Shown here piece after piece: positions 39,730 to 64,000 of a DNA stretch of 64,000 nt; within the stretch, counting starts at the first letter, position 1, and every line of letters starts with the position of its first letter. Under the pieces are notes generated by a model. That model saw only the letters and a list, made by a program, of their open reading frames with translations. It ran no database searches and was not told the DNA's origin. The translations under genes were made by a program, and so were the position numbers. The DNA is from Plantactinospora sp. BC1 (GTDB lineage: Bacteria; Actinomycetota; Actinomycetes; Mycobacteriales; Micromonosporaceae), in NCBI RefSeq assembly GCF_003030345.1, contig NZ_CP028158.1, forward strand, positions 7,812,001-7,876,000, in the 5' to 3' direction.

Positions 39730-40527
39730 GTGACCGTTCCTCCGATCTCCGGCACGACCCGGCTGTACGCGGTGTTGGGCGACCCGGTCACCCAGGTCAA
39801 GGCGCCCGGCCTGGTGAATCCGCTCTTCGCGGCGGAGGGGGTCGACGCGGTGCTGGTGCCGGTACACGTGCGGCCCGACCGGCTGGGCGAGGTCGTGGCC
39901 GGGCTGACGGCAATGACCAACGTGGACGGTCTGTTGGTGACCGTGCCGCACAAGGTTGCGGTGTGCCGGTATGCCGACCGGTTGGCCCCCGCCGCTCTCA
40001 TTGCCGGGAGCGCCAACGCCCTGCGGCGGGAGCCCGACGGTGGATGGCTGGCGGACAACTTCGACGGGGTCGGGTTTGTCCGTGGGCTGCGGGCGGCTGG
40101 GCACGATCCGGCCGGCCGGTACGTCGCGCTGGTCGGCGCGGGCGGTGCCGGCGGCGCGATCGCGGCGGCGCTGGCCGACGCGGGCGTGGCCCAACTGCGC
40201 ATCTCCGACACCGACCAGGTCCGACGCGACGATCTGGTGTCGCGGTCGAACCGGCGTCGTCCGGGATTGGCGGTCGGCGTGGACGAGCACTCCGGCAGCG
40301 ACGTGCACCTTGCCGTCAACGCGACGCCACTGGGCCTGCGCGACGACGACCCGCTGCCGTTCAGCCCCGGATCGCTGCCCCGGGACTGCGTCGTGGCGGA
40401 CATCATCATGGTTCCCGCGCAGACCCGGCTCCTGCGCGAGGCCGAGGCGGCCGGTCGGCCCGTCCACCCGGGCATCCACATGCTCCGCTTCCAGCTCGAC
40501 TCGTACCGCGCGTTCTTCGGCTTCTAG
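39730..40527 (+). CDS. RifI-like shikimate/aminoshikimate dehydrogenase
   Basis: The 265-residue shikimate dehydrogenase-fold protein has the N-terminal substrate domain (TRLYAVLGDPVTQVKAP, LLVTVPHK with the catalytic Lys, ADNFDG with the catalytic Asp) and the NAD(P)-binding VALVGAGGAGGAIAAAL. The C-terminal helix is HPGIHMLRFQLDSYRAF. It resembles RifI of rifamycin biosynthesis, which serves the aminoshikimate branch that also yields AHBA, more than housekeeping AroE; this is judged from the overall text. The AHBA synthase gene lies 10.5 kb downstream. The GTG start fits the first strand. Confidence 0.85.
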   Translation: MTVPPISGTTRLYAVLGDPVTQVKAPGLVNPLFAAEGVDAVLVPVHVRPDRLGEVVAGLTAMTNVDGLLVTVPHKVAVCRYADRLAPAALIAGSANALRREPDGGWLADNFDGVGFVRGLRAAGHDPAGRYVALVGAGGAGGAIAAALADAGVAQLRISDTDQVRRDDLVSRSNRRRPGLAVGVDEHSGSDVHLAVNATPLGLRDDDPLPFSPGSLPRDCVVADIIMVPAQTRLLREAEAAGRPVHPGIHMLRFQLDSYRAFFGF

Positions 40528-40721
40528 TGGCCCAGCCGGCCTGAGCCGGCGGGCGCCGGGGGAGCCCTCCACGGGGTCGGGCCACTGGCGTCACGTGAAG
40601 AGGTGACGTGTGGCGGCCGGGTGGTCGGACACACACTGATTCCGATTCGTCGTCGCGATTTGCCCGACGGGAGCAGGTGTGCCGTGCCTGCCGGTTGTTG
40701 GTGTCTAGTGGGGGGCCAGCA
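40528..40721. promoter_or_regulatory. Upstream region of the radical SAM operon
   Basis: No gene. It contains the inverted repeat CGTCAC-8nt-GTGACG (40589-40608), a possible operator for the long operon 40722-50660. This is a low-confidence reading. Confidence 0.35.
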
Positions 40722-42077
40722 TTGACTTCGGCTTTCATCGTTCAACTGCCCTTTCCGTCGACGCGGGCACCGGATCCACGCCTGTCCGCGTATTACCGGG
40801 ACTATGATCGCCTGTTCAGACTGACGTTCCCGGATTACTTCATCCCGGGTGACGGACTGTGGGAGATGCCGCTGTGGGTCGCCCACCTGACCGCCCTGAT
40901 CCGGGTGGCCGGGCTCGACTCGGCGTTCTGCGACCTGTCTCGACGACCGGCCGACGCCCAGGAGTGCGCCGACCATGTCCAGGAGGCGAGCGACCCCGGT
41001 GACCTGATCCTGATGTCACCGCTGGCGCAGAACATGGGGCTCGCATTGGAGACCGCTGCGCTGCTCAGGACGGCCGGCCGACGTGTCGTCATCGGTGGCA
41101 ACATGGCGCCGCTCGTGCCGGCCGGCGCGGTGGACCTGGTACATCGTGGTCAGCTCGACCCGACCCTGGTCGGCAAGCTGGTCCGGCTGGCCACCTCCGG
41201 CGGTGGCGAGATCGTCAACCCGCCGGGCCGGGGTCGCTCCGCCAACATGATCGACTGGGCGCCTGACTACCGGCACCTGGACGGCTACCGGGGGCGGGTT
41301 CCGCTACTGCGGCTGAATGCCAGCCACGGGTGCCTCTACAGCTGCTCGTTCTGCGGTGACGCCTGGACGAACCAGCTCGTACTCGTCGACCGCGCCGCGC
41401 TGGCCGCCGAGGTGGACGAACTCACGAAACGGTTTCCGGACACCAGGCTGGTCTACATCGGGGACAAGACGTTCGGCCAGTCCAAAGAGGCCACCCGCAA
41501 CCTGGTCGAGGTGTTCCGGGACCGGCCGGGCTTCCAGTTCGTCGTGCAGACGCACGTCATGCAGGTCCGGCCGTGGGTGATCGACGCGATGCGGGAGCTG
41601 GGCGTGGTGGCCGTGGAGCTCGGCTTCGAGTCCGGCGACTCGCAACTGCTCGCGCGGCTCAACAAGCTCTCCCGGGGTCTCGACGACTATGCCGAGAAGA
41701 TTCGCATGCTCGACGACGCCGGCATGAAGATCGTGCTCAACGTACTGGGTGGGTTGGACGAGGAGACCGAGGTGTCCCACCGGGAAACCGTGGAATGGTT
41801 GTGGGACAACCGCTCCATGCTCTGGTTGTTCAACCTGTACAACTTCGTCCCCTATCCGCTCGTGCCGGACTTCCCCCGGCTGCGGGACCGGATATTCGAC
41901 TGGGATTTCGCCAACTGGCGCGAAGACTGCCCACCGGTGTACCGGCCACAGAACCTCACCCCAGAGCGGAGCTGGGAATTGTTCACCGAAAAGGTCGACG
42001 TCGCACACCGAATCGTGCGGGAGGGCATCGAGATGGCCTTCCGGGGAGCGGAGCAGGGCTGTGGATCACCTGCCTGA
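40722..42077 (+). CDS. Radical SAM enzyme with B12-binding-like N-terminal domain
   Basis: A roughly 451-residue protein. The N-terminal part (1-165) looks like a cobalamin-binding-type Rossmann domain (DLILMSPLAQNMGLALETA, then RVVIGGNMAPLVPAGAVDLVHRG), but no clear DxHxxG is seen, so real B12 use is uncertain. The radical SAM core (about 190-400) has the cluster motif CLYSCSFCG (CxxxCxxC) and FGQSKEATRNLVEVF. It could methylate, rearrange or epimerise an intermediate. The TTG at 40722 is preferred for GGGGG about 7 nt upstream; GTG 40701 and ATG 40608 are in-frame alternatives. The next gene overlaps its 3' end by 17 bases. Confidence 0.82.
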   Translation: MTSAFIVQLPFPSTRAPDPRLSAYYRDYDRLFRLTFPDYFIPGDGLWEMPLWVAHLTALIRVAGLDSAFCDLSRRPADAQECADHVQEASDPGDLILMSPLAQNMGLALETAALLRTAGRRVVIGGNMAPLVPAGAVDLVHRGQLDPTLVGKLVRLATSGGGEIVNPPGRGRSANMIDWAPDYRHLDGYRGRVPLLRLNASHGCLYSCSFCGDAWTNQLVLVDRAALAAEVDELTKRFPDTRLVYIGDKTFGQSKEATRNLVEVFRDRPGFQFVVQTHVMQVRPWVIDAMRELGVVAVELGFESGDSQLLARLNKLSRGLDDYAEKIRMLDDAGMKIVLNVLGGLDEETEVSHRETVEWLWDNRSMLWLFNLYNFVPYPLVPDFPRLRDRIFDWDFANWREDCPPVYRPQNLTPERSWELFTEKVDVAHRIVREGIEMAFRGAEQGCGSPA

Positions 42078-43137
42078 CTTCGCGGAGCTTGCCGCCCGGG
42101 CCACACCTGCGGACTTCCGCGACGACCCGCTGCCGGGCTGGGCCGGTCTCGGCACACTCTTCGGCGCGCCCGCCGCCCGGCTGGACGAGCTGGGTCAGGT
42201 CGACGGCTGGGCGGTAGCCGCGGTCCCGTTCGACGGTACGGCGAGTTCCCGGCCCGGTGCTGCCGAGGGACCCCGCGCACTCCGGACCGCCAGCGTGGTC
42301 TTCGCGAACTCCCTTGCCAGCCTTGGCACCTGGGAGATGCTCGACACCCGGACCGGAGAGGCGTTCCGGTACGTCGCGCCGCAGGTGGTCGACGTCGGCG
42401 ACCTGCACGTCTATCCCACCGACACCTTCCGGACCTACCAGGCGGTGGCGGCGGAGAGCCGGTCGCTGTGCGCGCGGGCCGGACGGGTGATCTTCCTCAA
42501 CGGCGACCACTCCACCACGTTCGCGACCTTCAGCGGCTTCCGCGCCGCCCAACTGGACCGCGCGGCTGGCCGACGGATCGGCTTCGTCAACATCGACCAC
42601 CACTTCGACTTCGGCAGGTGGAGCGCCCTGCACGGCGCGCTGTACCACGGATCGAACTCGCGTCGGATCAGCGAACTGCCCGGGATGCGGCCCGAGGACA
42701 TCGCCTTCGTCGGCGTCGGCGACACGACCCGGTTCGACCAGTTCCGGTCACTGGTCGAGCAGGGCTTCCAAGTCGTCCCGGCGGCGCGGATCATGCGTAC
42801 CGGCGCCGACGCGGCACTTCGTCCCGTGGTCGAGCGGCTGGCCGCCGTGTGTGACGCCGTCTACGTGTCGCTCGACATCGATGTGCTGGACACCGCCGCG
42901 GTCACCGGGACCGGACACGTGACGATGGGCGGCCTCCAGGTGGCGCACCTGCTCGACGTCTACGAGGTCTTGCGCGAGCTACCGATCGGTGCGCTGGACG
43001 TGGCCGAGATCGCGCCACGGTACGACCCGACCGGCGCGACGGCGCAGGTCGTCGCCCGGCTGCTCTTCGAATTCCTCTTCCGCACCGGCCGCCACGATCC
43101 CGGCCTGCCCCATTGGCGATTCGACGAAGGAGGGTGA
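42061..43137 (+). CDS. Ureohydrolase-fold (agmatinase/arginase family) enzyme
   Basis: The 358-residue protein of the arginase superfamily has all likely metal ligands: H150 in LNGDHS, D179, H181 and D183 in IDHHFDFG, and D272 and D274 in SLDIDVLD. An N-terminal extension of about 50 residues precedes the fold. Such enzymes hydrolyse a guanidino or formimino group, releasing urea (or formamide). In this cluster it probably processes an arginine-derived building block or an intermediate carrying a guanidine group. The GTG overlaps the radical SAM gene, so they are co-translated. The exact substrate cannot be read from the sequence. Confidence 0.85.
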   Translation: MDHLPDFAELAARATPADFRDDPLPGWAGLGTLFGAPAARLDELGQVDGWAVAAVPFDGTASSRPGAAEGPRALRTASVVFANSLASLGTWEMLDTRTGEAFRYVAPQVVDVGDLHVYPTDTFRTYQAVAAESRSLCARAGRVIFLNGDHSTTFATFSGFRAAQLDRAAGRRIGFVNIDHHFDFGRWSALHGALYHGSNSRRISELPGMRPEDIAFVGVGDTTRFDQFRSLVEQGFQVVPAARIMRTGADAALRPVVERLAAVCDAVYVSLDIDVLDTAAVTGTGHVTMGGLQVAHLLDVYEVLRELPIGALDVAEIAPRYDPTGATAQVVARLLFEFLFRTGRHDPGLPHWRFDEGG

Positions 43138-43142
43138 CGATC

Positions 43143-44192
43143 GTGCGATTCGCATCGACCGACCAGTACCTGGACTGCGCGGAGCTGGTCCACGGAGAGG
43201 ACACCGAGGCAGCCGCGCGAGCCCTGGCCGAACGCGCGGTGCCGCTGGTCCAGCGTGCCGGTTCCGTCGTGTTCCGCCTCGGTCGGCTACGGCTCGGCAT
43301 CGAGGACAGCCGTGCGCTGAGCAGGGCGATCTGCGAGGCGCTGCGCCGGGCGCTCGTCGCCGGTGGAGCACCGGCCTCGATGCGGCTGGAGCACGATCGT
43401 GCGCAGTCCACGCACGTTCCGAGCGGATATCCGACCCGTACGCTGCTGCCGCACCACGACGGCCAGCACTGCTCGTACCTCACCCCGAGCACCCGGGACG
43501 ACCCGAGCTGGCTGCCGGAGTGGCGCGAGTTCGGCCGGTCCGGATACACCACGACCCCGGCACACAAGATGTACCAGGGGGTGTTCATCGCGGACCCGGG
43601 CGAGGCGTTGAGCGTGACGACGTACTACGACTGGCTGGACCTGCTGACAACCGTGTACGCCGAGCGTCACCGCCGCCCGGCCGCCGAGGTACCCCTCGGC
43701 GCGGTGGCCGAGTGGTTGGGCCGGAACCTGCGCGCGGCCCTGGACCGGCAGGCCAAGCATGGCAGCCCGTACCCGACGATCGGGGCGATGCTCGGCGTGG
43801 AGGAGCCGATGTGGCACGGCCTCTCCTTCCACCACGCCGAGGCCGAACTCTCCGGCGAGGATCGGGAGCGCTACCCGATGTCGGGTCCGTTGGCCAGAGC
43901 CTGTCCGTGTGGCGACTGCGTCGGGGACACCGCGCGACTTTTCTGCCACCAGACACTGCTGGCGACCGGACGCGACTGGCGGCAGTTTCGCGCGCGCTGG
44001 GAGGTCTGTGCGCCGAGCGAGCGGTTCGACCTGCTCTTCGGGCACAACCTGACCATGCTGCACGGCGGGTTGGCCGGCGGCGGGCACCGGGTGATCGAGC
44101 CGATGTGCCTGGTGGTCGACGAGCCGTCGGGTCCCGAGTACGAGGACTGGCTCGCCGCGTCCTGGCGGCGTCGGCTGCCGGTCGGCGAATGA
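43143..44192 (+). CDS. Probable Fe(II)/2-oxoglutarate-dependent oxygenase (TauD-like)
   Basis: The 349-residue protein has an H-x-D dyad (H104, D106 in LPHHDGQHC) and a C-terminal His/Arg block LHGGLAGGGHRVIEPMCLVV (H about 307, R about 316) that fits the facial triad and 2-oxoglutarate Arg of TauD/clavaminate-synthase-like oxygenases. Between them is a CPCGDC cluster of cysteines, unusual for the family. Start GTG 43143 is chosen because AAGGAGGG lies 8 nt upstream; the ATG at 43113 is inside the previous gene. It would hydroxylate, halogenate or desaturate a cluster intermediate. The family call is by motif only. Confidence 0.65.
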   Translation: MRFASTDQYLDCAELVHGEDTEAAARALAERAVPLVQRAGSVVFRLGRLRLGIEDSRALSRAICEALRRALVAGGAPASMRLEHDRAQSTHVPSGYPTRTLLPHHDGQHCSYLTPSTRDDPSWLPEWREFGRSGYTTTPAHKMYQGVFIADPGEALSVTTYYDWLDLLTTVYAERHRRPAAEVPLGAVAEWLGRNLRAALDRQAKHGSPYPTIGAMLGVEEPMWHGLSFHHAEAELSGEDRERYPMSGPLARACPCGDCVGDTARLFCHQTLLATGRDWRQFRARWEVCAPSERFDLLFGHNLTMLHGGLAGGGHRVIEPMCLVVDEPSGPEYEDWLAASWRRRLPVGE

Positions 44193-45091
44193 TGAGGACC
44201 ACCGATCCGCCGGCCCGGATCGAGGAGTTCGCCGCCAGCGGCGGGTACACGGACCTGCGGCCGCTTGGCCAAGGGCTGGAGTTCCTGGCCTTCGGTGCCA
44301 CGGCGGCGGACGGCTCGCCGGTCGTGCTGCGGACAGCGGTCGGTGCCCGGATCCAGTCCAACGCCAATGACCCGTACGTCGACACCCGGCAACTGCTGCG
44401 TTGGGAGCAGAGCGTCACGGTCCATCTCACCCGGCTGGGTTTCCCCGTCGCCGCCCCGCGCGAGCTGGTCCTCGGCGAGGTCGACGTGCTGATCAGCGAG
44501 TACCTCCCGGACGACGGTCGCGGGGCCGACCAGCAGCAGCTCGGTACCCTGCTACGGCGCCTGCACGACCTTCCGCCGCCGCTGGCCGAACCGGTGGCGG
44601 CGGAGGGAACCACCTCGGCCGAGCTGCTGCCTCGGCGGATCGTCCGCCGCTGGCGGGAGCTGGCCGCCCTGGTGCCGGACCTGCCCACCGCGCCGGACAC
44701 CGAGCGCCTGGCCGCCGAGCTGGCCCGCCCCCGTCCCGGCGCTCTGGTCCACCTCGACGTCCGGGCGGCCAACCTGCGCTGCACCGCCGGCCGGGTGCGG
44801 GGCCTGATCGACTGGTCGAACGCCATGGTCGCCGACCCCGTCCTGGAGCTGGCCCGGCTGGCGGAGTTCGCCCGGCTGCCCGGCAACGGGCTCGATCTCG
44901 ACGCGGTCCTGGCCGGCTACGGGTGTTCCGGGCTGCCGGACTCGCCCACCACCTCGATCTACCGCCTCGACGCCGCGGTGATGCTCGCCGTGGTCTTCCG
45001 CTGCGAGGCACCCGATCCGCAGTTGGGCTCCCGGGCGGTCGACCGCCTCCGCGAGCTGCGGGCCCAGCTCGACCGGGAGCTGAGCCGATGA
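44189..45091 (+). CDS. APH-family kinase
   Basis: The 300-residue kinase-fold protein has a nucleotide-binding N-lobe (LGQGLEFLAFGATAADGSPV) and a catalytic-loop region LVHLDVRAANLRC with metal-binding LIDWSNAMVADPVLELA. The APH family usually has HGD-x-x-x-x-N; here it is HLDVRAAN, with His and Asp displaced but plausible. It may phosphorylate a hydroxyl of an intermediate (activation or self-resistance) or protect the host from the product. The start overlaps the previous stop (ATGATG), and its own stop overlaps the ATP-grasp start, so it belongs to the tight operon. Confidence 0.78.
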   Translation: MMRTTDPPARIEEFAASGGYTDLRPLGQGLEFLAFGATAADGSPVVLRTAVGARIQSNANDPYVDTRQLLRWEQSVTVHLTRLGFPVAAPRELVLGEVDVLISEYLPDDGRGADQQQLGTLLRRLHDLPPPLAEPVAAEGTTSAELLPRRIVRRWRELAALVPDLPTAPDTERLAAELARPRPGALVHLDVRAANLRCTAGRVRGLIDWSNAMVADPVLELARLAEFARLPGNGLDLDAVLAGYGCSGLPDSPTTSIYRLDAAVMLAVVFRCEAPDPQLGSRAVDRLRELRAQLDRELSR

Positions 45092-46341
45092 GGCACGTAC
45101 TGCTGGTCGGCGGCGGCAGCCCGCTTCCGCAGCGGATCCGTTCCCTGCGCGACCCGGTGCGGACCTCGGTCATGGTGCGTAACCGCAACTTCGGCGATGT
45201 CCCGGAACCCGGCGAGAACGTCCGGGTCCTCGGCATGCGGGACGAGGCTCCGGCCGAGGAGTGGGTACGGACCGCGGCGGCGATCCACGAGTGCGACCCG
45301 TTCGACGGGATCGGCGCCTTCGCCGAGGACGACCAGGACAAGGCGGCGGCGATCGCCGCGAAACTCGGGCTGCGCTTTCACGCCGTGGGCACCGTCGAGT
45401 CGGTGTACGACAAGCTCCGGATGCGCGAGCGGCTGGCCGCCGCCGGAGTCGAGACGGTCCCGGCCGTCGCGGTGGAGTCCGCCGACGACGTGCGCGCGTT
45501 CGCCCGCCAGGTCGGCTACCCCGTGATCGTCAAACCGCGGACCGGTACCGGAAGCGCCGGTGTGGTGGCCGTCCGGGCCGAGCCGGACGTCGCCGAGGCC
45601 GTCGACTGGGCGGTCGGCACCGGCGTCCACGGAAACCGCCTGGTCATGGCGGAGCCGCTGCTCACCGGCCGGGAACTGACGGTGGAGGCGTTCTCCGAGG
45701 ACGGCGTGCACCGACTGGTGGGCACGACACAGAAGTCTCGGAGCCCCCGGCACTACGTCGACGTCGGCCACTGGATGCCGGCGACCCTGCGCCCCGACGA
45801 GACCGACCTCGTCTGGTCGCACGTCGCCCGGATGCTGGACGCGCTGGGCATCGGGTACGGGCCGACGCACACCGAGCTGATCCTGACCGGGGCCGGACCG
45901 CGCGTGGTGGAGACACACATCCGCTGTGCGGGCGACCACCTGCCGGTGCTGGCGCAGGACGTCCGGGGAGTCGACCTGTACGAGCTCACCGCCCGGCAGG
46001 TGGCTGGCGAGCGGGTACTTCCGGTCCTGGACCAGCAGCTCGCGAACCCGGCGAGCGGCGGTGCCGCGGTCTGGTACGCGGCCCCGGCCGCACGGGGAGT
46101 GCTGGTCTCCGTCGACAACCTGGCGGAGGCGCAGGCGCTGGAGGGGGTCCGGGCCATCGAGGTGCTGGTGCCGCAGGGCAGCGACTTCGACGGCATCCGG
46201 GTGTCGGACTCGTTCGGGCGGGTAGTGGGCTGCCGGGCCGTGGGCCCGGACGGGGAGCGGGCCGCGCGGACCGCGCGCGAGGCGTTGGCGGCACTGGTCT
46301 TCGCGGTGCGCTGTACGGTGACGGACAACGACTTTGACTGA
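45088..46341 (+). CDS. ATP-grasp ligase (peptide/amide-forming)
   Basis: The 417-residue ATP-grasp protein has an N-terminal preATP-grasp domain (1-105). The ATP-grasp core includes VGYPVIVKPRTGTGSAGVVAV, ELTVEAFSEDGVHRLVGTT and the metal-binding VVETHIRCAGDHLP (acidic E and H/R cluster). The C-terminal domain (about 315-417) is characteristic of L-amino acid ligases (BacD type). It activates a carboxylate as acyl phosphate and joins it to an amine. Both flanks overlap neighbouring genes. It probably forms an amide bond in the product without a carrier protein. Confidence 0.88.
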   Translation: MRHVLLVGGGSPLPQRIRSLRDPVRTSVMVRNRNFGDVPEPGENVRVLGMRDEAPAEEWVRTAAAIHECDPFDGIGAFAEDDQDKAAAIAAKLGLRFHAVGTVESVYDKLRMRERLAAAGVETVPAVAVESADDVRAFARQVGYPVIVKPRTGTGSAGVVAVRAEPDVAEAVDWAVGTGVHGNRLVMAEPLLTGRELTVEAFSEDGVHRLVGTTQKSRSPRHYVDVGHWMPATLRPDETDLVWSHVARMLDALGIGYGPTHTELILTGAGPRVVETHIRCAGDHLPVLAQDVRGVDLYELTARQVAGERVLPVLDQQLANPASGGAAVWYAAPAARGVLVSVDNLAEAQALEGVRAIEVLVPQGSDFDGIRVSDSFGRVVGCRAVGPDGERAARTAREALAALVFAVRCTVTDNDFD

Positions 46342-47587
46342 CCGGATCGCGACCTCGCTGGCGGACATCGAAGCCGCTGTCTGGGACCGTGCCGGGTGCA
46401 GCTCCTCGGTCTACCTCACCCACGCCTGGCTCTGCTCGGTCGAGGGACGAATCTCGCCGACGCAGTTCTACCTGCTCTCCGGCCCTGACTCGCGACCCAG
46501 CGGGCGGCTCAGCTGTTACCTGCTCCCCGAGCCGGCCGGGAACTACGCGACCTTCGATCCGGTCGAGACGCTGCTCGTCGCGGACTCGCGCGCCCGGGTG
46601 ACCGGGTACGGCGCCGAGGGGGACGCCGACGCCTACGATGCCGCGCTCGCCGAGGTGGCCCGGAATCGCGCCACGCTGTATCCGGCGCTGGTCTGCGCGG
46701 TGCCGAACGGCTACCTGGCCGGGATCGACCGGGCGCGCACCGGCGGCCCCGACCCGGACCGAGCCGCCCCGGACCGAGCCGACCCGGACGGAACCGACCC
46801 GGACGGAGCCGTGCTGACGCACCTGCTCGACCGCTTCGAGGCACTGGCCCGCTCGGTGGGGGCGCGTACGGCCGCCGTGCTGTACGTGCCGGACGGCGAC
46901 CTCGCCCTGGCCCGGCAGTTGCGGGTTCGCGGCTACGTGGAGGCCGTGGCCGGCGCGAACAGCGTGCTGGAGGTCCCCGCCGGCACCTTCGAGGACTACC
47001 TGGGCGGCCTGCGCGGCATCAGGGCCAGGAAGGAGGTCGAGCGTTTCCGGGGGTACGGCCTCACCGTCGAGATCTGCGACAGTTCGGTCCTCGACGAGCG
47101 CCTTGCCGAGCTTCAGCTCCAGCACTACCGGCAGTACGGGTTGCGGGGATCGCTGGACCACGTGCTGCGTTCCTTCCGGGAAACCCGACGGCATCTCGGG
47201 GACAAGCTGCGGGTCATCCGGGTCCACCGGAGGGAGACGATCGTCGGCTTCCACTCCGGTTTCCGGTACGGACGCAGCCTCTTCAGCCGCTACGGGGCCT
47301 TCGACAGGGACCTGCTCGGCCGGGAGACCTTCGCGCACTTCAACCTCCAGTACTACGAGATGGTTCGGCTGGCGCAGGCGGAGGGGGTGCGGGAAATCCA
47401 CTATGGACTGGGCAGCTATCCGACCAAGGTGCGCCGGGGTTGCCGGCTCGACGCGTTGCGCACCTTCGTCCGACCGATGGCCACCGGGCCGGCGACGTCG
47501 GCCCTGGCCACCTGCTGGCGCCTGCTCGGCCGGGCGAACGAACGCGAGATCGCCGCGGTGACGGGAGGGGTGCAGCATGACACGTGA
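46334..47587 (+). CDS. FemAB/GNAT-fold peptidoglycan-type acyltransferase, copy 1
   Basis: The 417-residue protein resembles the bacterial FemAB-like group with two GNAT lobes; the C-terminal lobe includes LRVIRVHRRETIVGFHSGFRYG, FAHFNLQYYEMVRLAQAEGV and IHYGLGSYPTKVRRGC. A low-complexity acidic linker (repeated PDPDR/PDGTD) splits it near residues 138-160. The start is an unusual TTG overlapping the ATP-grasp stop, read as L-T-D-R. Family members transfer aminoacyl groups from tRNA or CoA to an amine. It probably adds an amino acid in this pathway. It is a paralogue of the protein at 48281. Confidence 0.75.
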   Translation: MTDRIATSLADIEAAVWDRAGCSSSVYLTHAWLCSVEGRISPTQFYLLSGPDSRPSGRLSCYLLPEPAGNYATFDPVETLLVADSRARVTGYGAEGDADAYDAALAEVARNRATLYPALVCAVPNGYLAGIDRARTGGPDPDRAAPDRADPDGTDPDGAVLTHLLDRFEALARSVGARTAAVLYVPDGDLALARQLRVRGYVEAVAGANSVLEVPAGTFEDYLGGLRGIRARKEVERFRGYGLTVEICDSSVLDERLAELQLQHYRQYGLRGSLDHVLRSFRETRRHLGDKLRVIRVHRRETIVGFHSGFRYGRSLFSRYGAFDRDLLGRETFAHFNLQYYEMVRLAQAEGVREIHYGLGSYPTKVRRGCRLDALRTFVRPMATGPATSALATCWRLLGRANEREIAAVTGGVQHDT

Positions 47588-49417: not shown

Positions 49418-49424
49418 TCGTCGG

Positions 49425-54454: not shown

Positions 54455-54483
54455 CGGCCGAATGAGTGCCTGGGAGGAAAAGC

Positions 54484-56822: not shown

Positions 56823-57782
56823 ATGCGGGTGACGGTGATCGGCGGGACCGGGCACGTGGGCGGGTACCTCGTGCCTCGGCTCTCGGCGTCGGGCTGCGAC
56901 GTGACAGTGGTGACGCGGGGGAAGAGCACGCCGTACCGGAGGCACGGTGCCTGGGACCAGGTCGAGCTGGTGGTGGCGGACCGGGAGGCGGAGGAGGCAG
57001 CGGGCACGTTCGGAGAGCGGATCGCGGCGCTCGATCCCGACGTGGTGATCGACATGATCTGCTTCACCGAGGAGAGCGCCCGACAGCTTGTCGAGGCGGT
57101 GCGCGGCCGGGTCGGGCACCTGCTGCACTGCGGCACGATCTCGGTGCACGGGCCGAGTCGGGTGTTGCCGACCACCGAGGCGGCGCCGCGCCGGCCGATC
57201 GACGAATACGGGATGGGGAAGGCGGCCGTCGAGCGGTACCTGCTCGACCAGGCGCACCGTCACGGGCTGCCCGCGACGGTGATCCATCCGGGGCACATCA
57301 CCGGACCGGGGTGGGTGCCGGTCAACCCGGCCGGCAACCTGGACCCGGCGGTCTTCCAGCGGCTTGTCGACGGCGCCGAACTGGCCCTGCCCAACCTGGG
57401 GCTGGAGACGCTGCAACACGTGCACGCCGACGACGTCGCGGCGCTGTTCACCGCCGCGATGGCGAGCCGGTCCACGGCGGTGGGGGAGAGCTTCCACTCG
57501 GTGGGCGCCACCACGCTGACGCTGCGCGGGTACGCCGAGGCCGTCGCCGCCTGGTACGGCCGGGAGGCGAACCTGGTCTTCCAGCCGTACGACCGCTGGC
57601 GGGAGAACGTGCCGGACCGAGACGCCCGAGCCACCTGGAACCACATCGCGCACAGCCCGCACTGCTCGATGGCGAAGGCCGAGCGCCTGCTCGGCTACCG
57701 TCCCCGGTTCGGTGCGCTGGAAGCTGTCCAGGAGTCCGTCGACTGGCTGGTCGCACACGGCGAGCTGACCGCGCCGGTCTAG
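56823..57782 (+). CDS. NAD-dependent epimerase/SDR
   Basis: The 319-residue extended SDR has the nucleotide-binding VTVIGGTGHVGGYLV, active-site region CGTISVHG and YxxxK in DEYGMGKAAVE. It resembles reductases or epimerases of antibiotic clusters. The last 4 bases overlap the stop of the convergent LLM gene. The start at 56823 is chosen for the Rossmann strand. Confidence 0.88.
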   Translation: MRVTVIGGTGHVGGYLVPRLSASGCDVTVVTRGKSTPYRRHGAWDQVELVVADREAEEAAGTFGERIAALDPDVVIDMICFTEESARQLVEAVRGRVGHLLHCGTISVHGPSRVLPTTEAAPRRPIDEYGMGKAAVERYLLDQAHRHGLPATVIHPGHITGPGWVPVNPAGNLDPAVFQRLVDGAELALPNLGLETLQHVHADDVAALFTAAMASRSTAVGESFHSVGATTLTLRGYAEAVAAWYGREANLVFQPYDRWRENVPDRDARATWNHIAHSPHCSMAKAERLLGYRPRFGALEAVQESVDWLVAHGELTAPV

Positions 57783-58612
57783 CCGGTACGGCGGAAGACC
57801 GATCGGTTCTTCTCGTCCCGCCAGTCGATCCAGCTGCGCAGTGGCGCCAGGTCGTATCTCGGGCCGCTGCTGCTGATGGTGAACAGTCGGGTCCCGAGCG
57901 CGTAGAGGGCCTCGGCCAGCTCGCCCGGCTCGCCGATGCCGGACGGCCCGGTCACTCCGGCGGACCGCTCGATCTCGACGGGGTCGCGGCCGATGGCGGC
58001 GCAGTACCCGTCGAGGACGCGATGCTTGCGCTCGATCTGCGCCGGGTCGCCGATGCCGTGCCAGATGTCCGCGTGCGCGGCGACCAGCTTGAGCGTCCTC
58101 TTCTCGCCGCCGCCACCGACCAGCACGGGCACCTTCCGGGTGGGTGCCGGGTTCAGCTTGCCGAGCCGGCTCCGGATCCGGGGCAGCGCCTCGGCGAGAT
58201 TGTCCAGCCGGCCGCCGGCGGTGCCGAACTCGTAGCCGTATTCGAGGTAGTCCCGCTCGAACCAGCCCGCGCCGATGCCGAGGATCAGCCGGCCGTCGGA
58301 GATGTGGTCGACGGTACGCGTCATGTCCGCCAGCAGTTCCGGGTTGCGGTAGCTGTTGCAGGTGACGAGAGCGCCGATCTCGACGCTGGTGGTCGCCTCG
58401 GCCCACGCGCCGAGCATCGTCCAGCATTCGAAGTGTTTACCGTCGGGATCGCCGAAGACCGGGAAGAAGTGGTCCCAGGTGAAGATGATGTCGACGCCGA
58501 TCTCCTCCGCCTCGGCGACCGCCCGGCGGATCTCGGCATAGTCGGCGTGCTGGGGCCACAGTTCCAGGCCGATGCGTACCGGACCGGTGTACGTGCGCAC
58601 CACGAAATCCAA
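57779..58612 (-). CDS. LLM-class F420-dependent oxidoreductase
   Basis: The 277-residue TIM-barrel oxidoreductase has the LLM pattern: TWDHFFPV near the start, LGALVTCNSYRNPELLADM-type block (ALVTCNSYRNPELLADMT), GIGAGWFERDYLEYG and VPVLVGGGGEKRTLKLVA. Actinomycete members use F420 to reduce or oxidise intermediates. It is read on the reverse strand, opposite to the SDR, so it has its own promoter in the divergent region 58613-58776. Substrate unknown. Confidence 0.9.
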   Translation of the reverse strand: MDFVVRTYTGPVRIGLELWPQHADYAEIRRAVAEAEEIGVDIIFTWDHFFPVFGDPDGKHFECWTMLGAWAEATTSVEIGALVTCNSYRNPELLADMTRTVDHISDGRLILGIGAGWFERDYLEYGYEFGTAGGRLDNLAEALPRIRSRLGKLNPAPTRKVPVLVGGGGEKRTLKLVAAHADIWHGIGDPAQIERKHRVLDGYCAAIGRDPVEIERSAGVTGPSGIGEPGELAEALYALGTRLFTISSSGPRYDLAPLRSWIDWRDEKNRSVFRRTG

Positions 58613-58776: not shown

Positions 58777-60249
58777 ATGGATTGTTCACCGCAGGCGCGA
58801 ATCGCCACCGGAGTGCTGGAAGGTGAATGGAAAAACGGGATAGCGGCGTTCCTGGGTATTCCGTTCGCCGCTGCACCCGTCGGTGCGAACCGGTTCGCCG
58901 CGCCTCGCCCGGCGCCGCCCTGGGACGGGGTGCGACGTGCCACCGAGTTCGGTTCGGCACCCCCGCAGCCTCGACGGGAGTCGGAGGACGACGACTGGTT
59001 GAACCTGGCGGTCTGGACGCCCGACCCCGGCGCGCGGGGTCTGCCGGTGCTGGTCTGGATCAGCGGCGGGGCGTACCTGCAATGCTCCACCGCGAATCCG
59101 CACCACGACGGCAGGATCCTGGCGGCCGGCGGCGCGGTGGTGGTCAGCGTCAACTACCGGGTCGGGGCCGAGGGGTGGGCGCACCTGCCCGGTTACCCCG
59201 ACAACCGGGGGCTGCTCGACCAGATTGCCGCGTTGCGCTGGGTGCGGGAGAACATCGCCGCGTTCGGGGGCGCCCCGGACAACGTCGCCGTGTTCGGCCA
59301 GTCGTCCGGAGCCGGGTCGGTGGCCGCGCTGCTGGTGATGCCTCGGGCGGCCGGACTCTTCGACCGGGCCATCGTGCAGAGCCTGCCCGGTACGTACTTC
59401 ACGTCGGAACTGGCCGCCGAGGTCACCGGCCGCATCCTTGCCGAACTCGACCCTTCCCTCGCCCCGGAGCAGCTCGCCGAGGTCTCCCCGCAACGGCTGA
59501 CGACCGCGGTGACCCAGATGAGCGAAGAGTTGCTACCGACGATGGCTGCCCGCTGGGGCCCGGTCGCCTACACCCCGACCCCGTTCTCCCCGGTCGTGGA
59601 CGGTGAAATCCTGCCCGTCACCCCGTGGGAGGGACTGGCCGCCGGCCCGGCGAACCAGGTGCCGATGCTGCTCGGCCACGTCCGCGACGAGGGGCGGCTG
59701 CTCGCTGCCCGGCTCGGTCCCGCCGAGGACGCCGCGGTCGACCAAATGATCAACAGTCTTGCCCCGGCGGCGGACGCCGCTCGCTACCGAGCGGACTTCC
59801 CGGAACTGGCCGCGGCCGAGCTGCGAGAGGTCGCGCTGGGGGACTGGTTGATGCGGATGCCGACGCTGAAGCTGGCCGAAGCCGCCCACCGCGGACGGGT
59901 CCCGGTGTGGCTCTCCGAACTCTGCTGGGGCCACGGACCCGGGGGTGCCGCGCACACCCTGGACGCGTTGCTCGTCTTCGGCACCGCGGACATTTTCGGC
60001 GAGGTCACGACGGCCGGATCGGCGAAGGTGGAGGAATACCGCAGGCTCTCGGAGCTGATGCGTACCGAATATCTCACCTTCGCCGCGACCGGCGACCCGG
60101 GCTGGTCCCGCTTCGATCCGGACAGGCGCGCCACCCGGATCTACGGTACCGACCCGTCGGTGCGGCCCTACCCGGAACAACGGTCCCAGGCAATATGGTC
60201 CGGTCATCGGTACCCGGCCATGGATCGACTCACGACAGTCGCAGGCTGA
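58777..60249 (+). CDS. Type B carboxylesterase
   Basis: The 490-residue alpha/beta hydrolase has the elbow FGQSSGAGS (Ser177), oxyanion text WISGGAYLQ, the acid in LLGHVRDEGRLL and a His in the ELCWGHGPGGAAHTLDAL block. It has the length of carboxylesterase/para-nitrobenzylesterase types. No signal peptide, so cytoplasmic. It may remove a protecting ester or amide acyl group from a late intermediate. The divergent LLM gene shares its promoter region (58613-58776). Confidence 0.88.
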   Translation: MDCSPQARIATGVLEGEWKNGIAAFLGIPFAAAPVGANRFAAPRPAPPWDGVRRATEFGSAPPQPRRESEDDDWLNLAVWTPDPGARGLPVLVWISGGAYLQCSTANPHHDGRILAAGGAVVVSVNYRVGAEGWAHLPGYPDNRGLLDQIAALRWVRENIAAFGGAPDNVAVFGQSSGAGSVAALLVMPRAAGLFDRAIVQSLPGTYFTSELAAEVTGRILAELDPSLAPEQLAEVSPQRLTTAVTQMSEELLPTMAARWGPVAYTPTPFSPVVDGEILPVTPWEGLAAGPANQVPMLLGHVRDEGRLLAARLGPAEDAAVDQMINSLAPAADAARYRADFPELAAAELREVALGDWLMRMPTLKLAEAAHRGRVPVWLSELCWGHGPGGAAHTLDALLVFGTADIFGEVTTAGSAKVEEYRRLSELMRTEYLTFAATGDPGWSRFDPDRRATRIYGTDPSVRPYPEQRSQAIWSGHRYPAMDRLTTVAG

Positions 60250-60308
60250 GGCACCGCCGTCGGCGATGGGCGGCGGCGCCCGGTGGCGTCGAGGCCGGGC
60301 CGCCGGTC

Positions 60309-61505
60309 CTACCGGGGGCGCACGGCCGTCAGCTGCGGCACCCCGGCCGACTGGTAGAGCCGCTCGATGATGTCGATCGTCCGGGTCACCTCGGCGATGG
60401 CTGATCCGGGCCGCCCCGGATCAGCCAGCAGCGCCGGCACCAGGTCGAGCTGGCGGCGGTACTCCGCCCCCCGGTCCTGCTGCGGCACGTCGACGGATTC
60501 GGCCCGCCCGTCCCGGTGCAGCAGCAGGGTCGAGCCGCCAACCCCGTTCGGGCTGAGGCCGAAGGTGCAGGTCAACTCGGCACGGCCGGTGGCGCCGTCG
60601 AGCACCACCCGGGTCACGTCGCGCTCGGAATGCGAGGCCCAGGCCGCGCAGACGGTGACGAGCGGGCCGCCCTCGATTTCGAGTACGCCGCGAGCGGTGT
60701 CCTCGACGTCCTTCGGAGCGCCGGCGTACGGGGCAGCGTGCGCGGCCGGACCGGTCCCGCGCCAGGTCGCTTCGGTGCCGGCCCGGGCGAGGAAGTCCCC
60801 CGACACGGCGCAGGTCACCTGCGTGACCCGCGGCCAGGACAACATCCGCATGCCGATGGTGATCAGGTGCCAGCCCAGGTCGATCAGTGCGCCGCCACCG
60901 GCCCGGCGGCGGTCGGTGAACCAGCCGCCCGGAGCGGGAATGCCGCGGGCCCGGATCCACGACAGTTCAACGGCCCGCAGCGGGCCGAGCCGCGGCAGCA
61001 GCGTACGCAGGGCCGTGACGTCCGCGCGATGCCAGGCCGCGCTGCCCGCCAGTAGGCGGGCACCACCCACCCGCTCCGCCTCGGCCAACGCCGCCGCCTC
61101 ATCGGAACTGACGCAGACCGGCTTCTCGACGAACGTGGAGATTCCCCGCTCCAGCAGCGAGATCGCGATCGGGGCGTGCAGGTGATTGGGGGTCACGACC
61201 ACGGCCAGGTCGACCTCGTCGGGACGGAGGTCGCCGGGCTCGTTCAGCAGCCGTGCGGCGGGGAACCTGCCGCCGGCCCACCTGACCGCGACGGGGTCCG
61301 GGTCGTGCACGGCGACGACGGTGAACCCGGGATGACCGCCGAGCAGCGGCGCCCAGAGCTCGTGGACGGCCCAGCCGAGGCCGATGAGCGCCAGCCGGAC
61401 CGGGGCGACGTCGGACACCAGCGCCGCGCTCCGCCGCCGGCCGGCTCCCCGGACCGGACCCGGCGGGCGTGCACCCGTGCCGGGGGAGACACCGCTTCCG
61501 GTCAC
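60309..61505 (-). CDS. RifL-like Gfo/Idh/MocA oxidoreductase
   Basis: The 398-residue Gfo/Idh/MocA enzyme has NAD(P)-binding LALIGLGWAVHELW, the EKPVCVSSDEA block (catalytic Lys) and D-x-G-x-H in ALIDLGWHLITIG. In the AHBA pathway RifL is the oxidoreductase partner of AHBA synthase for making the amino sugar precursor; the other pathway genes here favour this role. The start GTG 61505 overlaps the stop of the ACP gene (GTGA), so the ACP, this enzyme and the condensation gene form one reverse-strand operon. Confidence 0.82.
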   Translation of the reverse strand: MTGSGVSPGTGARPPGPVRGAGRRRSAALVSDVAPVRLALIGLGWAVHELWAPLLGGHPGFTVVAVHDPDPVAVRWAGGRFPAARLLNEPGDLRPDEVDLAVVVTPNHLHAPIAISLLERGISTFVEKPVCVSSDEAAALAEAERVGGARLLAGSAAWHRADVTALRTLLPRLGPLRAVELSWIRARGIPAPGGWFTDRRRAGGGALIDLGWHLITIGMRMLSWPRVTQVTCAVSGDFLARAGTEATWRGTGPAAHAAPYAGAPKDVEDTARGVLEIEGGPLVTVCAAWASHSERDVTRVVLDGATGRAELTCTFGLSPNGVGGSTLLLHRDGRAESVDVPQQDRGAEYRRQLDLVPALLADPGRPGSAIAEVTRTIDIIERLYQSAGVPQLTAVRPR

Positions 61506-61780
61506 CGGGGGCAGCCGACCAGTCGAACGATGCTCTCCGCCAGCGAGCTGACCGAGGCCGCGCTCTGGATCGTCTGGTCCTCGTCGGCGAGGTCGACGCC
61601 GAACTCGTCTTCCGCCCTGGCGAGCAACTGGACGATGGCGATCGAGTCGAACCCGGCGAACTGGGTGAGTGAGGTCTCCTCGTCGATCCCGGACTCCGCG
61701 CAGCTCGGCACCAGCTCCACCACCCAGGCCATCAGTCGCCGCACCACCGCCGAACGCTCAACCATCTCCGCTTCGTTCAT
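61502..61780 (-). CDS. Free-standing acyl/peptidyl carrier protein
   Basis: The 92-residue carrier protein has phosphopantetheine-accepting Ser46 in AGFDSIAIVQLL. The start at 61780 is chosen because GGAGAGG lies 9-10 nt upstream of that ATG; the frame could extend 9 residues further. It overlaps the condensation gene's stop by 23 bases and the next start by 4. It is the natural partner of the acyl-AMP ligase at 53072 and of the condensation protein, so AHBA or another aryl acid would be carried on it. Confidence 0.9.
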   Translation of the reverse strand: MNEAEMVERSAVVRRLMAWVVELVPSCAESGIDEETSLTQFAGFDSIAIVQLLARAEDEFGVDLADEDQTIQSAASVSSLAESIVRLVGCPR

Positions 61781-63170
61781 CAAGAGAGACCTCTCCTTCC
61801 GTATCAACAGCTTCGGTCAGCGCCACCCTGAAGGCGTCGACCGCTGGCAGGTGACGACCCTCGGTCAGTACGGCGAGTGCGAAAGCCTCCATCGCGACGA
61901 GGATGTCGCGCGGTTCCGCCACGGGCAGGTAGCTGCGGTCGATCAGAACTGCCGGCGCCGGCCCGCCCGCTCCGTTCCGCACCTCGACGTGGAACTTGTC
62001 GTCGTAGTACCGAAGACCCTGGGGCGGTCCGATGACGGTCCGGGAGCGGAGCGAATGGATCGCGGGAACGGACCGGAGCCGCTGCGGCCGGGAACTGGCC
62101 GCGGCGTCCCGGAAGTCGTTGTGCATGGCGTCGAACCTGGTCGGATCGACGATCGCCTCCAACTCGTCGGTGCGGTACCTGCCCATCGAGTAACCACGGA
62201 TGCTGGCCGCCATGGAGCGCCGGACAACCTCGTCGAACACCGCGTCGCCCACCTCGACGTCGAAGGCGCACGCCTGCGACAGATTGCCGATGTAGCGCTT
62301 CTCGGCGTCGGTGAACCGGTTCGAGATCATGCAGCGGAGCACAGCGGTAGGGCGGTCCGACAGTGCTGACACCGCCGTCGCCGACAGGGCCACGTAAACG
62401 GCCGGCGAGGTGACCGCGTTCCGGTCGGCGATCCGGTCGAACGCGCACCCGAGTGCCGGGGAGAACATCGAGGCGCGCATCCAACGCGGCTCGCGGTCGG
62501 CAGGCAGCCGGCTCGGGAAGTTCGTGACATCGGCCCGCTCCACGAACCGCTTCCAGCGGCCGATCGTCCGCGCGTTCCGCAGCACGCCCGTCGGGGTGCC
62601 CTCCGCCAACGCTCTCGCCACCGGTGTCAGCAGGGCCCGGTCGTCGCCGTACCGGTGGTCGCCGTTCAGCCGCGCGGTGAACTCCTCCACCAGGCGGTTA
62701 CGGGCCAGTCCGTCGATCGACAGGTGCGACACCACGATCAGCAGCCAGGCGGGACGCCCCTCGACGTGCACGACGCCGAATCGCGCGGGGAGTTCGGAGT
62801 CGAAGTCGAACGACCGATCGGCCAGCCGATCGAGGAGGCCATCCAGCGACTCCTCGGTGCCCTGCTCCACCACCACCTCGACCCCACCCGCCCCGACCAC
62901 CTCCTGCCGGCCGGAGCCATCCGCCGAGTCGAAGTAGCGGGTCCGCAGCGCCTCGTGCTTGACGAGCATTTCCCGGATCACCGACAACACGTCGTCGAGT
63001 GAGCAGCCGGCCGGTATCTCGACCCTGAAACGGACGTTCAGATAGGTGTCGTAGGGATGGAATTTCTTGACCGCTCCCCACATCCCGAACTGGGACCATG
63101 TCATCGGCGCGACAGCGCCGGTCAGGCCCGAAAAATGCACGGTCGTCGACGTGGTTGACGAGGCATTCAT
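61758..63170 (-). CDS. Free-standing NRPS condensation-domain protein
   Basis: The 470-residue condensation-fold protein has SHLSIDG at 148-154 in place of the canonical HHxxxDG: the first His is Ser, the second (catalytic) His149 and D153 are kept. The fold runs from the N-terminal block VAPMTWSQFGMWGAVKKF (about 20-37) to the C-terminal PPQGLRYYDDKFHVEVR region. It may join the carrier-bound aryl acid to an amine or alcohol acceptor. The start at 63170 is supported by AGGAGG about 9 nt upstream. It heads the operon with the ACP and RifL-like genes. Confidence 0.85.
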   Translation of the reverse strand: MNASSTTSTTVHFSGLTGAVAPMTWSQFGMWGAVKKFHPYDTYLNVRFRVEIPAGCSLDDVLSVIREMLVKHEALRTRYFDSADGSGRQEVVGAGGVEVVVEQGTEESLDGLLDRLADRSFDFDSELPARFGVVHVEGRPAWLLIVVSHLSIDGLARNRLVEEFTARLNGDHRYGDDRALLTPVARALAEGTPTGVLRNARTIGRWKRFVERADVTNFPSRLPADREPRWMRASMFSPALGCAFDRIADRNAVTSPAVYVALSATAVSALSDRPTAVLRCMISNRFTDAEKRYIGNLSQACAFDVEVGDAVFDEVVRRSMAASIRGYSMGRYRTDELEAIVDPTRFDAMHNDFRDAAASSRPQRLRSVPAIHSLRSRTVIGPPQGLRYYDDKFHVEVRNGAGGPAPAVLIDRSYLPVAEPRDILVAMEAFALAVLTEGRHLPAVDAFRVALTEAVDTEGEVSLDERSGDG

Positions 63171-63371
63171 TGTGGCTCGACCTCCTGGTGATTGGCTGCC
63201 CGGCACGCATGGTCTGGCCTCGGTGCGGATGCCCGTCGAGAGTGCGGAAAGCTTCTCTGTCAGCCGGCAGCCTTCGGTCAAAGTAGGGATCTCCCGAGCG
63301 GGAGTCAAACGTTTCCGTCTCCCGCCGGACACCTCCCGACAGGGCCGCGGTCGCCGTACGCCCCGGGACGG

Positions 63372-64000
63372 TCAGGCGCCGGTGAGGACCTCGGTGAACC
63401 GCTCGACGAGAGCGATGGCCTGGGCGGGGTTGAGGCGGGGATCGCACGCCGATCTGTATCGGGAGCGGGCCGGCCCCGGACCCAACTCCGCGCAGTTCTC
63501 CACGCATTCGGTCACCTCGTCCGGGGTCATCTCCAGATGCAGCCCACCGGGCTGGACCCGGTGCCGGTGCAGCACCGCACAGAACCGCTCGACCTCCTCG
63601 GTCATCCGCCGCATAACGCGGGTTTTCAGCCCCCGGGCCGAGCGGACGGTGTTGCCGTGCATGGGGTCGCTGAGCCACACGACGCGGGCCGCGTCCTCGC
63701 CCAGGGCGCGGACGACGGGCGGCAGCCGCTCACCGATCCGGTCGGCGCCCATCCGGACGATCAGACTCAGGCGGCCGGGTGGCCTCGTCCCGGCCAGTCG
63801 CGAGACCAACGCGGCTGCCTCGGCCGGGTCGACGCCCGGCCCGATCTTCACCCCGATCGGGTTGCTGACGCTGGCGGCGAATTCGACGTGCGGCCCGCCG
63901 ACGTCCCGGGTGCGTTCGCCGATCCAGACCGTGTGGGCCGACGAGGCGAAGACCCCGCCCCGGATCGGGTCGGGGCGTACGAGGGCGCGCTCGTACTCCA
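63372..64000 (-). CDS. Class II (amino)DAHP synthase, RifH-like, cut by window end
   Basis: The reverse-strand frame is open from the right edge of the window to the stop at 63372, so its N-terminus lies beyond base 64000. The visible part shows class II DAHP synthase motifs: SSAHTVWIGERTRDVGGPHVE, VSNPIGVKIGPGVDP, WLSDPMHGNTV, HRVQPGGLHLEMT and the terminal SACDPRLNPAQAIALVERF. In AHBA clusters this enzyme (RifH) condenses PEP with an amino sugar phosphate (aminoDAHP). Housekeeping AroH-type enzymes look alike, and the neighbourhood decides for the AHBA role. About 200 residues are visible. Confidence 0.9.
   Translation of the reverse strand, partial: EYERALVRPDPIRGGVFASSAHTVWIGERTRDVGGPHVEFAASVSNPIGVKIGPGVDPAEAAALVSRLAGTRPPGRLSLIVRMGADRIGERLPPVVRALGEDAARVVWLSDPMHGNTVRSARGLKTRVMRRMTEEVERFCAVLHRHRVQPGGLHLEMTPDEVTECVENCAELGPGPARSRYRSACDPRLNPAQAIALVERFTEVLTGA

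Follow-up and report, generated by a model that had tools for sequence, protein, structure and literature searches.

An orphan 3-amino-5-hydroxybenzoate gene cluster without a polyketide synthase in Plantactinospora sp. BC1 and its relatives in other actinomycetes

Introduction

To our knowledge, all products made from the drug precursor 3-amino-5-hydroxybenzoic acid (AHBA) need either a polyketide synthase (PKS) or the mitomycin route. Ansamycin clusters of the rifamycin type share RifK, RifL, RifM, RifN, RifJ and RifI with the locus described here, an AHBA cluster in Plantactinospora sp. BC1 that begins in a 64,000-nucleotide stretch of the genome (the window; contig NZ_CP028158.1) and continues beyond its right edge. 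The mitomycin route, as set out in the accessible part of PMC8621148, proceeds by way of AHBA-CoA and AHBA bound to the carrier MmcB, with transfer of N-acetylglucosamine (GlcNAc) by MitB. We report that the Plantactinospora cluster, which has no PKS, is real, conserved and orphan. Our observations concern its gene content, conservation, reading frames, the residues of its chorismatase and the lack of a PKS, and from these we develop a conditional proposal for what the cluster makes.

Results

The source genome is a single contig of 8.33 Mb, and the window is its bases 7812001-7876000. We added the 60 kb adjoining the window on its right, giving 124 kb in total; coordinates above 64000 continue the window count. 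Genes were called with a simple codon-usage script, and starts were corrected by hand. The best explanation of the locus is an AHBA cluster from 51081 to about 73330, with a core of about 22 kb, plus a RifI-like gene (g32) at 39730. A plus-strand block starting at 51081 encodes AHBA synthase, RifM, an AMP-dependent ligase, a cytochrome P450, a PhyH-type oxygenase and an epimerase-like protein, followed by an F420-dependent oxidoreductase on the minus strand and a carboxylesterase on the plus strand. The next block, on the minus strand, encodes RifL, a 92-residue carrier, a condensation-domain protein, a class II 3-deoxy-D-arabino-heptulosonate 7-phosphate (DAHP) synthase, a chorismatase and RifJ. 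At the right end are plus-strand genes for a berberine bridge enzyme-like (BBE) oxidase, a GH13 enzyme, a cobalamin adenosyltransferase, a GT8 glycosyltransferase and a RifN-like ROK kinase, followed by a regulator-like gene on the opposite (minus) strand. An initial annotation of the window had recognized an AHBA synthase with RifI-, RifL-, RifM- and RifH-like genes, and family matches and identities to other AHBA loci bear this out for the first four, while the RifH-like gene belongs to the class II DAHP synthase family. It overlooked the condensation-domain protein and the carrier, and the chorismatase lies just outside the window.

That annotation also described the cluster as lacking a PKS. 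With one ketosynthase query, taken from an AHBA-linked PKS (E 1e-8), there were no matches in the 124 kb, including the 60 kb directly right of the window in which a type I PKS was looked for, nor in 60 kb around the A. azurea relative or 54 kb around the CA-128772 relative described below, so this description holds. A census of 397 genomes of the order yielded 25 AHBA loci in 22 genomes, or 23 loci after the source genome and A. azurea (G090) were left out. Ketosynthase matches were present in 19 of the 20 other loci for which at least 35 kb was fetched. One locus, G150b, has no ketosynthase in 40 kb, which counts against this absence being unique to the cluster family of the source genome; its sister locus G083b (pairing 100/100) has two ketosynthase matches. 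Three loci on short stretches (G145b, G118 and G204) also lack one, which carries little weight. As a control, all four of the Streptomyces plasmid AHBA loci that we opened, one of them unannotated, hold a ketosynthase; a plasmid search (E 1e-60) found AHBA synthases in Streptomyces only, in 11 records. Homologues of g51, g52, g54, g56, g57, g59 and the regulator were found in 0 of the 23 other loci (E 1e-8, stretches of 9-46 kb), and one of the four Streptomyces plasmid loci gave weak matches to the BBE oxidase (34%) and the regulator (38%).

Nothing in 60 relatives, six of them congeners, matches the ligase g44 at E 1e-60, and the cluster therefore looks to have been acquired. We sought relatives of the cluster in species genomes with a pair of short peptide patterns drawn from the profile of the condensation protein, followed by tblastn. 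Four loci were found, in Streptomyces sp. SBT349 (78%), Amycolatopsis azurea DSM 43854, Amycolatopsis kentuckyensis NRRL B-24129 and Amycolatopsis sp. CA-128772, with the A. kentuckyensis copy seen only in part on a 5.8-kb contig. The A. azurea locus contains 16 homologues of cluster genes at 43-84% identity, all but the regulator in conserved order, and the CA-128772 cluster is 74-92% identical to that of A. azurea. In all 23 gene pairs compared between these two strains, dN/dS by a simple count is 0.13-0.39, as expected under selection for function. In both Amycolatopsis loci an aldo/keto reductase replaces the PhyH oxygenase, the epimerase and the F420 enzyme, and an O-methyltransferase lies to the left. 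Extra genes in A. azurea and CA-128772 encode a GT2-type protein, a deacetylase, GNATs, a decarboxylase, a DUF6271 protein and a sugar-phosphate cyclase. The cyclase, a member of the 3-dehydroquinate (DHQ) synthase family that is not RifG-like, lies to the right of the cluster (A. azurea L032:15280-16449, with the CA-128772 homologue in L061) and in A. azurea is accompanied by TIM-barrel and ROK/alcohol dehydrogenase genes. It may add a cyclitol unit.

The copy in Streptomyces sp. SBT349 is eroded. Matches cover no more than 42 residues of AHBA synthase and 26 of RifM, RifL is broken into two pieces, and no RifH, RifJ or GH13 gene was found in 21 kb. The ligase, P450, esterase, carrier, condensation enzyme, chorismatase, BBE oxidase, GT8 protein and regulator are free of stop codons, and a 42-residue match to RifN is at the edge of the stretch. 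Elsewhere, this genome encodes two other AHBA synthases (69 and 66%), each within a locus that has additional AHBA genes. Read most simply, SBT349 still uses AHBA and draws it from outside the cluster. A truncated form of the cluster, from the condensation gene through the ROK kinase (45%), occurs on the plasmids pFRP1-1 and pBCI1-1 (L111, L116) of ant-associated Pseudonocardia. On these plasmids an IS110 element directly follows the condensation gene, with an O-methyltransferase gene beyond it that is 68% identical to that of A. azurea, and the ligase, carrier, P450, RifL, RifM and AHBA synthase were not found. The GT8 gene of pFRP1-1 is split over two frames.

The AHBA supply genes RifK, RifL, RifM, RifN and RifJ are all present in the source cluster. 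The AHBA synthase g42 (RifK-like; 51081..52265, plus strand; DegT_DnrJ_EryC1 1.9e-93, scored with a shortened start) is intact and shares, over nearly its whole length, 65-79% identity with the AHBA synthases found in 21 other genomes, with 79% to A. azurea and 65-74% to the remaining loci; the synthases of the source genome, A. azurea and CA-128772 form one clade (support 100/99). The RifM-like UDP-kanosamine phosphatase g43 (52291..53028, plus strand) scores 321 bits against the NCBIfam family TIGR01454, "AHBA synthesis associated protein" (cut-off 247), and is 72% identical to its A. azurea counterpart. RifL is represented by the Gfo/Idh oxidoreductase g50 (60309..61418, minus strand; GFO_IDH_MocA 1.2e-15), which is 75% identical to that of A. 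azurea and 47-52% identical to a gene in 20 of the 23 other AHBA loci. Kanosamine kinase, aminoDHQ synthase and dehydratase genes had been expected to the right of the window or elsewhere; a RifN-like ROK kinase (g60; 71320-72282, plus strand) and a RifJ-like dehydratase (g55; 65652-66089, minus strand) are indeed there, and the aminoDHQ synthase RifG was not found there. The dehydratase g55 is 74-84% identical to AHBA-locus dehydratases compared to about 46% to another dehydratase of the same genome. The class II DAHP synthase g53 (RifH-like; 63372..64529, minus strand, of which the window holds 63372..64000) is 36-46% identical to DAHP synthases of other AHBA loci and forms a separate clade in the tree. 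The RifI-like (amino)shikimate dehydrogenase g32 (39730..40527, plus strand; Shikimate_dh_N 1.3e-16) is 57-62% identical to a gene in 12 of the 23 other AHBA loci compared to 36% to two paralogues in its own genome. It is cut off from the other AHBA genes by a 10-kb operon (40722-50660), and nothing in the A. azurea or CA-128772 stretches matches it.

No match to RifG was detected in the 124 kb around the cluster, nor was one found elsewhere in the source genome or in A. azurea. Four genes of the DHQ synthase family occur elsewhere in the source genome: three are 34-41% identical to the RifG-like protein G219_8, and the fourth (27 bits) has no BLAST match to it. By comparison, RifG-like genes of other AHBA loci are 66-72% identical to G219_8. 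The accessible part of PMC8788734 assigns the aminoDHQ step to RifG, so the host AroB must be assumed to stand in. CA-128772, unlike A. azurea, carries a RifG-like gene elsewhere in its genome (69%). We considered the sugar-phosphate cyclase beside the Amycolatopsis copies (G090_51) as a candidate RifG and rejected it at 30-32% identity to the RifG-like protein.

The remaining core genes suggest a small assembly system. The stand-alone AMP-dependent aryl-acid ligase g44 (53072..54454, plus strand; AMP-binding 1.3e-25, C-terminal domain 2.6e-15) is 65% identical to its homologue in A. azurea and 69% to that in SBT349, compared to 31-34% to the PKS loading domains of other AHBA loci. It has the motif FHSYGF, whereas 15 of 15 loading domains from AHBA loci have FHSLSH, a motif that presumably lines the acid pocket. 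The free-standing phosphopantetheine carrier g51 (92 residues; 61502..61780, minus strand; PP-binding 5.2e-8) has a GFDSI motif and is 71% identical to the carrier of A. azurea and 74% to that of SBT349. The free-standing condensation-domain protein g52 (61758..63170, minus strand) matches the Pfam family Condensation (2.6e-12) over residues 20-165 of 470 only. Its HxxxDG motif reads HLSIDG, with H149 and D153 invariant in five of five aligned sequences, and the g52 profile of four relatives matches the peptidyl carrier-condensation (PCP-C) didomains 7kw2 and 8fx7 over positions 24/25-359 of 463 (E ~5e-10). The presence of one ligase, one carrier and one condensation enzyme suggests that a single acyl group is passed to a soluble amine. 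The same genome encodes, at about 137-138.4 kb (L046), another free-standing condensation-domain-like protein, 28% identical to g52, next to large genes with ligase- and condensation-like matches.

The gene g54 (64534 to about 65526, minus strand; just right of the window, start set by hand) encodes a predicted chorismatase of the FkbO/Hyg5 type with the residues of the 3-hydroxybenzoate-forming (Hyg5-type) enzyme. It is nearer Hyg5 (5ag3, 258 bits) than FkbO (4bps, 211 bits), and scores 307 bits against NCBIfam TIGR04444, slightly below the cut-off of 325, as a fragment with a shortened start. The accessible part of PMC7170507 lists Gly-164, Gly-231, Cys-318 and Glu-325 of Nat-Hyg5 as residues of the CH-II/Hyg5 class. 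All four, with positions transferred through Hyg5, are kept in g54 and in four of four relatives; the first Gly also occurs in FkbO and is not discriminating. We considered the possibility that g53 serves 3-hydroxybenzoate alone, which is weakened by its loss along with RifK, RifM and RifJ in SBT349; this shared loss favours a role of g53 in AHBA supply.

We propose, with a probability of roughly 0.45, that the ligase loads 3-hydroxybenzoate (or AHBA) on the carrier and that the condensation enzyme couples it, with AHBA as the second unit, to give a polyketide-free aromatic product from two C7 acids. Here we infer the substrates of the ligase and the condensation enzyme, the order of steps and the sugar steps. 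AHBA would be supplied by RifL, RifK, RifM, RifN, the DAHP synthase g53, RifJ and RifK again, and the aminoDHQ step, for which the cluster has no gene, would probably fall to the host AroB. The chorismatase g54 would supply 3-hydroxybenzoate. The ligase g44 would adenylate one acid, most likely 3-hydroxybenzoate, and load it on g51, and g52 would hand the acyl group to a soluble amine, for which AHBA is the most likely donor, to form a 3-hydroxybenzoyl-AHBA aryl amide. Tailoring may involve the P450 g45, the BBE oxidase and, in the source genome, the PhyH oxygenase g46, and the GT8 and GH13 enzymes may add and trim a sugar, so that glycosylation is probable. We favour 3-hydroxybenzoate as the loaded acid because the chorismatase stays with the ligase, carrier and condensation enzyme in SBT349, where the AHBA genes are lost, and because the g44 motif differs from that of the PKS loading domains.

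Several points weigh against this proposal. Aryl amines make poor nucleophiles. In SBT349 the assembly genes persist with no AHBA genes in cis, a pattern that is also compatible with a product made without AHBA. The missing RifG in the source genome and A. azurea, together with the position of g53 outside the clade of AHBA-locus enzymes, leaves the AHBA supply incomplete on paper, and the structure model of g52, made with four relatives, is too poor for use (mean predicted local distance difference test score, pLDDT, 32.5). Lastly, MitE activates AHBA for a 93-residue carrier, according to the accessible part of PMC8621148, and a parallel here would put AHBA on g51.

This parallel leads to a mitomycin-like alternative, in which g44 loads AHBA on g51, a glycosyltransferase acts on the carrier-bound AHBA, g52 releases or couples the product and 3-hydroxybenzoate is a late acyl decoration. 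A stand-alone ligase and a 92-residue carrier beside AHBA genes match MitE and the 93-residue MmcB, and the GT8 gene in the cluster, along with the GT2-type gene and the polysaccharide deacetylase gene in A. azurea, is consistent with a route through a MitB-like step such as that described in the accessible part of PMC8621148. This alternative does not account for the g44 motif, which is unlike that of the PKS loading domains of AHBA loci, and we regard it as somewhat unlikely. We also know of no chorismatase or condensation enzyme in mitomycin biosynthesis.

Another interpretation is that RifK, RifL and RifM make kanosamine, to whose amine g52 couples 3-hydroxybenzoate, while RifH and RifJ feed the ordinary shikimate pathway. 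A free sugar amine is a good nucleophile, the cluster contains the sugar enzymes GT8 and GH13, and both the failure to find RifG in the source genome or A. azurea and the separation of g53 from other AHBA-locus DAHP synthases would be explained. The much closer similarity of g55 to AHBA-locus dehydratases than to the other dehydratase in the genome and the presence of a RifN-like kinase argue against it. In addition, SBT349 has lost RifH and RifJ together with RifK and RifM and yet has kept the chorismatase. We consider the kanosamine route quite improbable.

The cytochrome P450 g45 (54484..55692, plus strand; p450 5.5e-24) is 71% identical to its homologue in A. azurea and 80% to that in SBT349, and the carboxylesterase-family protein g49 (58777..60249, plus strand; COesterase 2.3e-55) is 70 and 76% identical, respectively. 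The PhyH-type oxygenase g46 (55991..56764, plus strand; PhyH 2.5e-33) and the NAD-dependent epimerase/dehydratase-like protein g47 (56823..57782, plus strand; Epimerase 6e-22) have no counterpart in the A. azurea, CA-128772 or SBT349 stretches. The F420-dependent luciferase-like oxidoreductase g48 (57779..58603, minus strand; TIGR03856, 382 bits) has a gapped 57% match within the SBT349 locus. To the right are the BBE oxidase g56 (66424-67950, plus strand), the amylase-like GH13 enzyme g57 (68016-69599, plus strand), the GT8 glycosyltransferase g59 (70490-71323, plus strand) and the regulator-like gene g61 (72318-73328, minus strand). The cobalamin adenosyltransferase gene (69691-70251) is flanked by those for the GH13 and GT8 enzymes. 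We recognized no B12 enzyme in the AHBA cluster, but the neighbouring operon at 40722-50660 includes a B12-type radical SAM gene.

That neighbouring operon (g33-g41; 40722..50660, plus strand) encodes, in order, the B12-type radical SAM protein, a ureohydrolase, g35, an aminoglycoside phosphotransferase-like (APH) kinase, an ATP-grasp ligase, a FemAB-like protein, a haloacid dehalogenase-family (HAD) protein, a second FemAB-like protein and a major facilitator superfamily (MFS) transporter. The start of g33 at 40722 was picked by eye to fit the homologue in G126, a genome of the same family. Successive gaps between the genes are -17 to +20 nucleotides, with 149 nucleotides before g33 (at the script's start) and 420 after g41. 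Barring weak HAD-family matches between g39 and RifM, none of the nine genes was found in the stretches of 21-60 kb around the A. azurea, CA-128772, SBT349 and Pseudonocardia relatives. The coupling of the genes, their own exporter and their absence around the relatives identify 40722-50660 as a separate operon with its own MFS exporter, outside the AHBA cluster. The initial annotation had merged the two, treating 39730-64000 as one cluster and crediting the AHBA pathway with an amide-forming set and an exporter; the ATP-grasp, FemAB-like and MFS genes belong to the operon.

The sole tie of the AHBA genes across the operon is the RifI-like g32 to its left. A single cluster from 39730 on, in which the ATP-grasp/FemAB operon adds amino acids to an AHBA product, would explain why the operon has RifI on one side and the AHBA synthase on the other (left and right, respectively), on the same strand and across a gap of 420 nucleotides. 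In G126, homologues of g33, g34 and g35 (72, 79 and 67%) have a g31 homologue (65%) in their neighbourhood, and the 40 kb there contain no AHBA gene; together with the absence of the operon around the relatives of the cluster, this makes the single cluster unlikely. The three G126 genes form a unit without g36-g41 at about 16064-19515 (L117/L118). With its kinase/phosphatase pair, the operon resembles a cluster for a small peptide or an amide. Its gene g35 has no Pfam or NCBIfam match, the structure model of g35 (mean pLDDT 39.8) is of no use, and no solved structure gave a credible match to a profile built from g35 and its G126 homologue (best E 0.097). A search with g35 recovered itself alone in 394 genomes of the class, itself and the G126 homologue in 397 genomes of the order, and nothing on plasmids; g38 recovered itself alone in the 397 genomes at E 1e-40. 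Further left, the window contains a bacterial serpin gene (35429-36583; Pfam Serpin 6.5e-93).

Discussion

We tentatively suggest a third kind of AHBA assembly beside PKS-dependent ansamycins and MitB-type mitosanes, in which a free ligase-carrier-condensation set forms an aryl amide of 3-hydroxybenzoate and AHBA that is glycosylated and oxidised, and whose genes have spread horizontally among actinomycete families and onto plasmids. We rate this as possible, at somewhat less than even odds. The pathway of AHBA supply is known, as is every one of the enzyme families, but not, so far as searched, their combination. The initial proposal of a candidate new AHBA-derived product stands as an orphan cluster and not as a product as such, with no matching compound in the literature searched. 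Searches on AHBA with chorismatase, Amycolatopsis, A. azurea, 3-hydroxybenzoic acid and non-ansamycin AHBA listed no paper on this cluster or a matching product, which is weak evidence of absence given that subscription papers were largely outside their reach. Azureomycins, octacosamicins and dipyrimicins are described for A. azurea in the accessible part of PMC13122635, along with further orphan clusters on contig 2, where the copy of the AHBA cluster also lies. The term "AHBA" does not occur in the accessible main text of that paper, and the accessible part of a review of Amycolatopsis (PMC8037709) contains nothing fitting and is silent on A. azurea.

A conserved PKS-free AHBA cluster with a 3-hydroxybenzoate enzyme and a miniature assembly line would represent a new use of AHBA. 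The cluster is small, and a named strain, A. azurea DSM 43854, carries it. The eroded copy in SBT349, in a genome with other AHBA loci, provides a natural test of cross-supply between clusters.

The one-ligase, one-carrier, one-free-condensation-enzyme set is that of the vibriobactin-type proteins VibE, VibB and VibH, in which the ligase acts on an aryl acid. The likeness of g44, g51 and g52 to these proteins is one of gene set and not one drawn from sequence. Compared to ansamycin clusters, the locus has no PKS, RifG was not found, the DAHP synthase belongs to another clade, and a stand-alone ligase, carrier, condensation enzyme and chorismatase are present. With the mitomycin and FR900482 clusters it shares AHBA without a PKS and a stand-alone ligase with a carrier of about 92 residues (MitE/MmcB), by description in the accessible part of PMC8621148 and not by sequence; it differs in its condensation enzyme, Hyg5-type chorismatase, GT8 and GH13 genes, and neither the glycosyltransferase MitB nor the reductase MitF was identified in it, though no reference sequences were compared. 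As in the clusters for unantimycins, cuevaene and brasilicardin, a Hyg5-type chorismatase or presumed 3-hydroxybenzoate genes would provide a 3-hydroxybenzoyl unit of the scaffold, but those scaffolds are made by PKS/nonribosomal peptide synthetase or terpene pathways, and no AHBA genes are mentioned for them in the accessible parts of PMC7170507 and PMC7837296. In polyenes primed with AHBA or 3-hydroxybenzoate, the accessible parts of PMC8944477 and PMC5183585 predict AHBA or Hyg5-made 3-hydroxybenzoate as the aromatic unit, as proposed here, but there the unit primes a giant PKS, whereas in the Plantactinospora cluster there is none.

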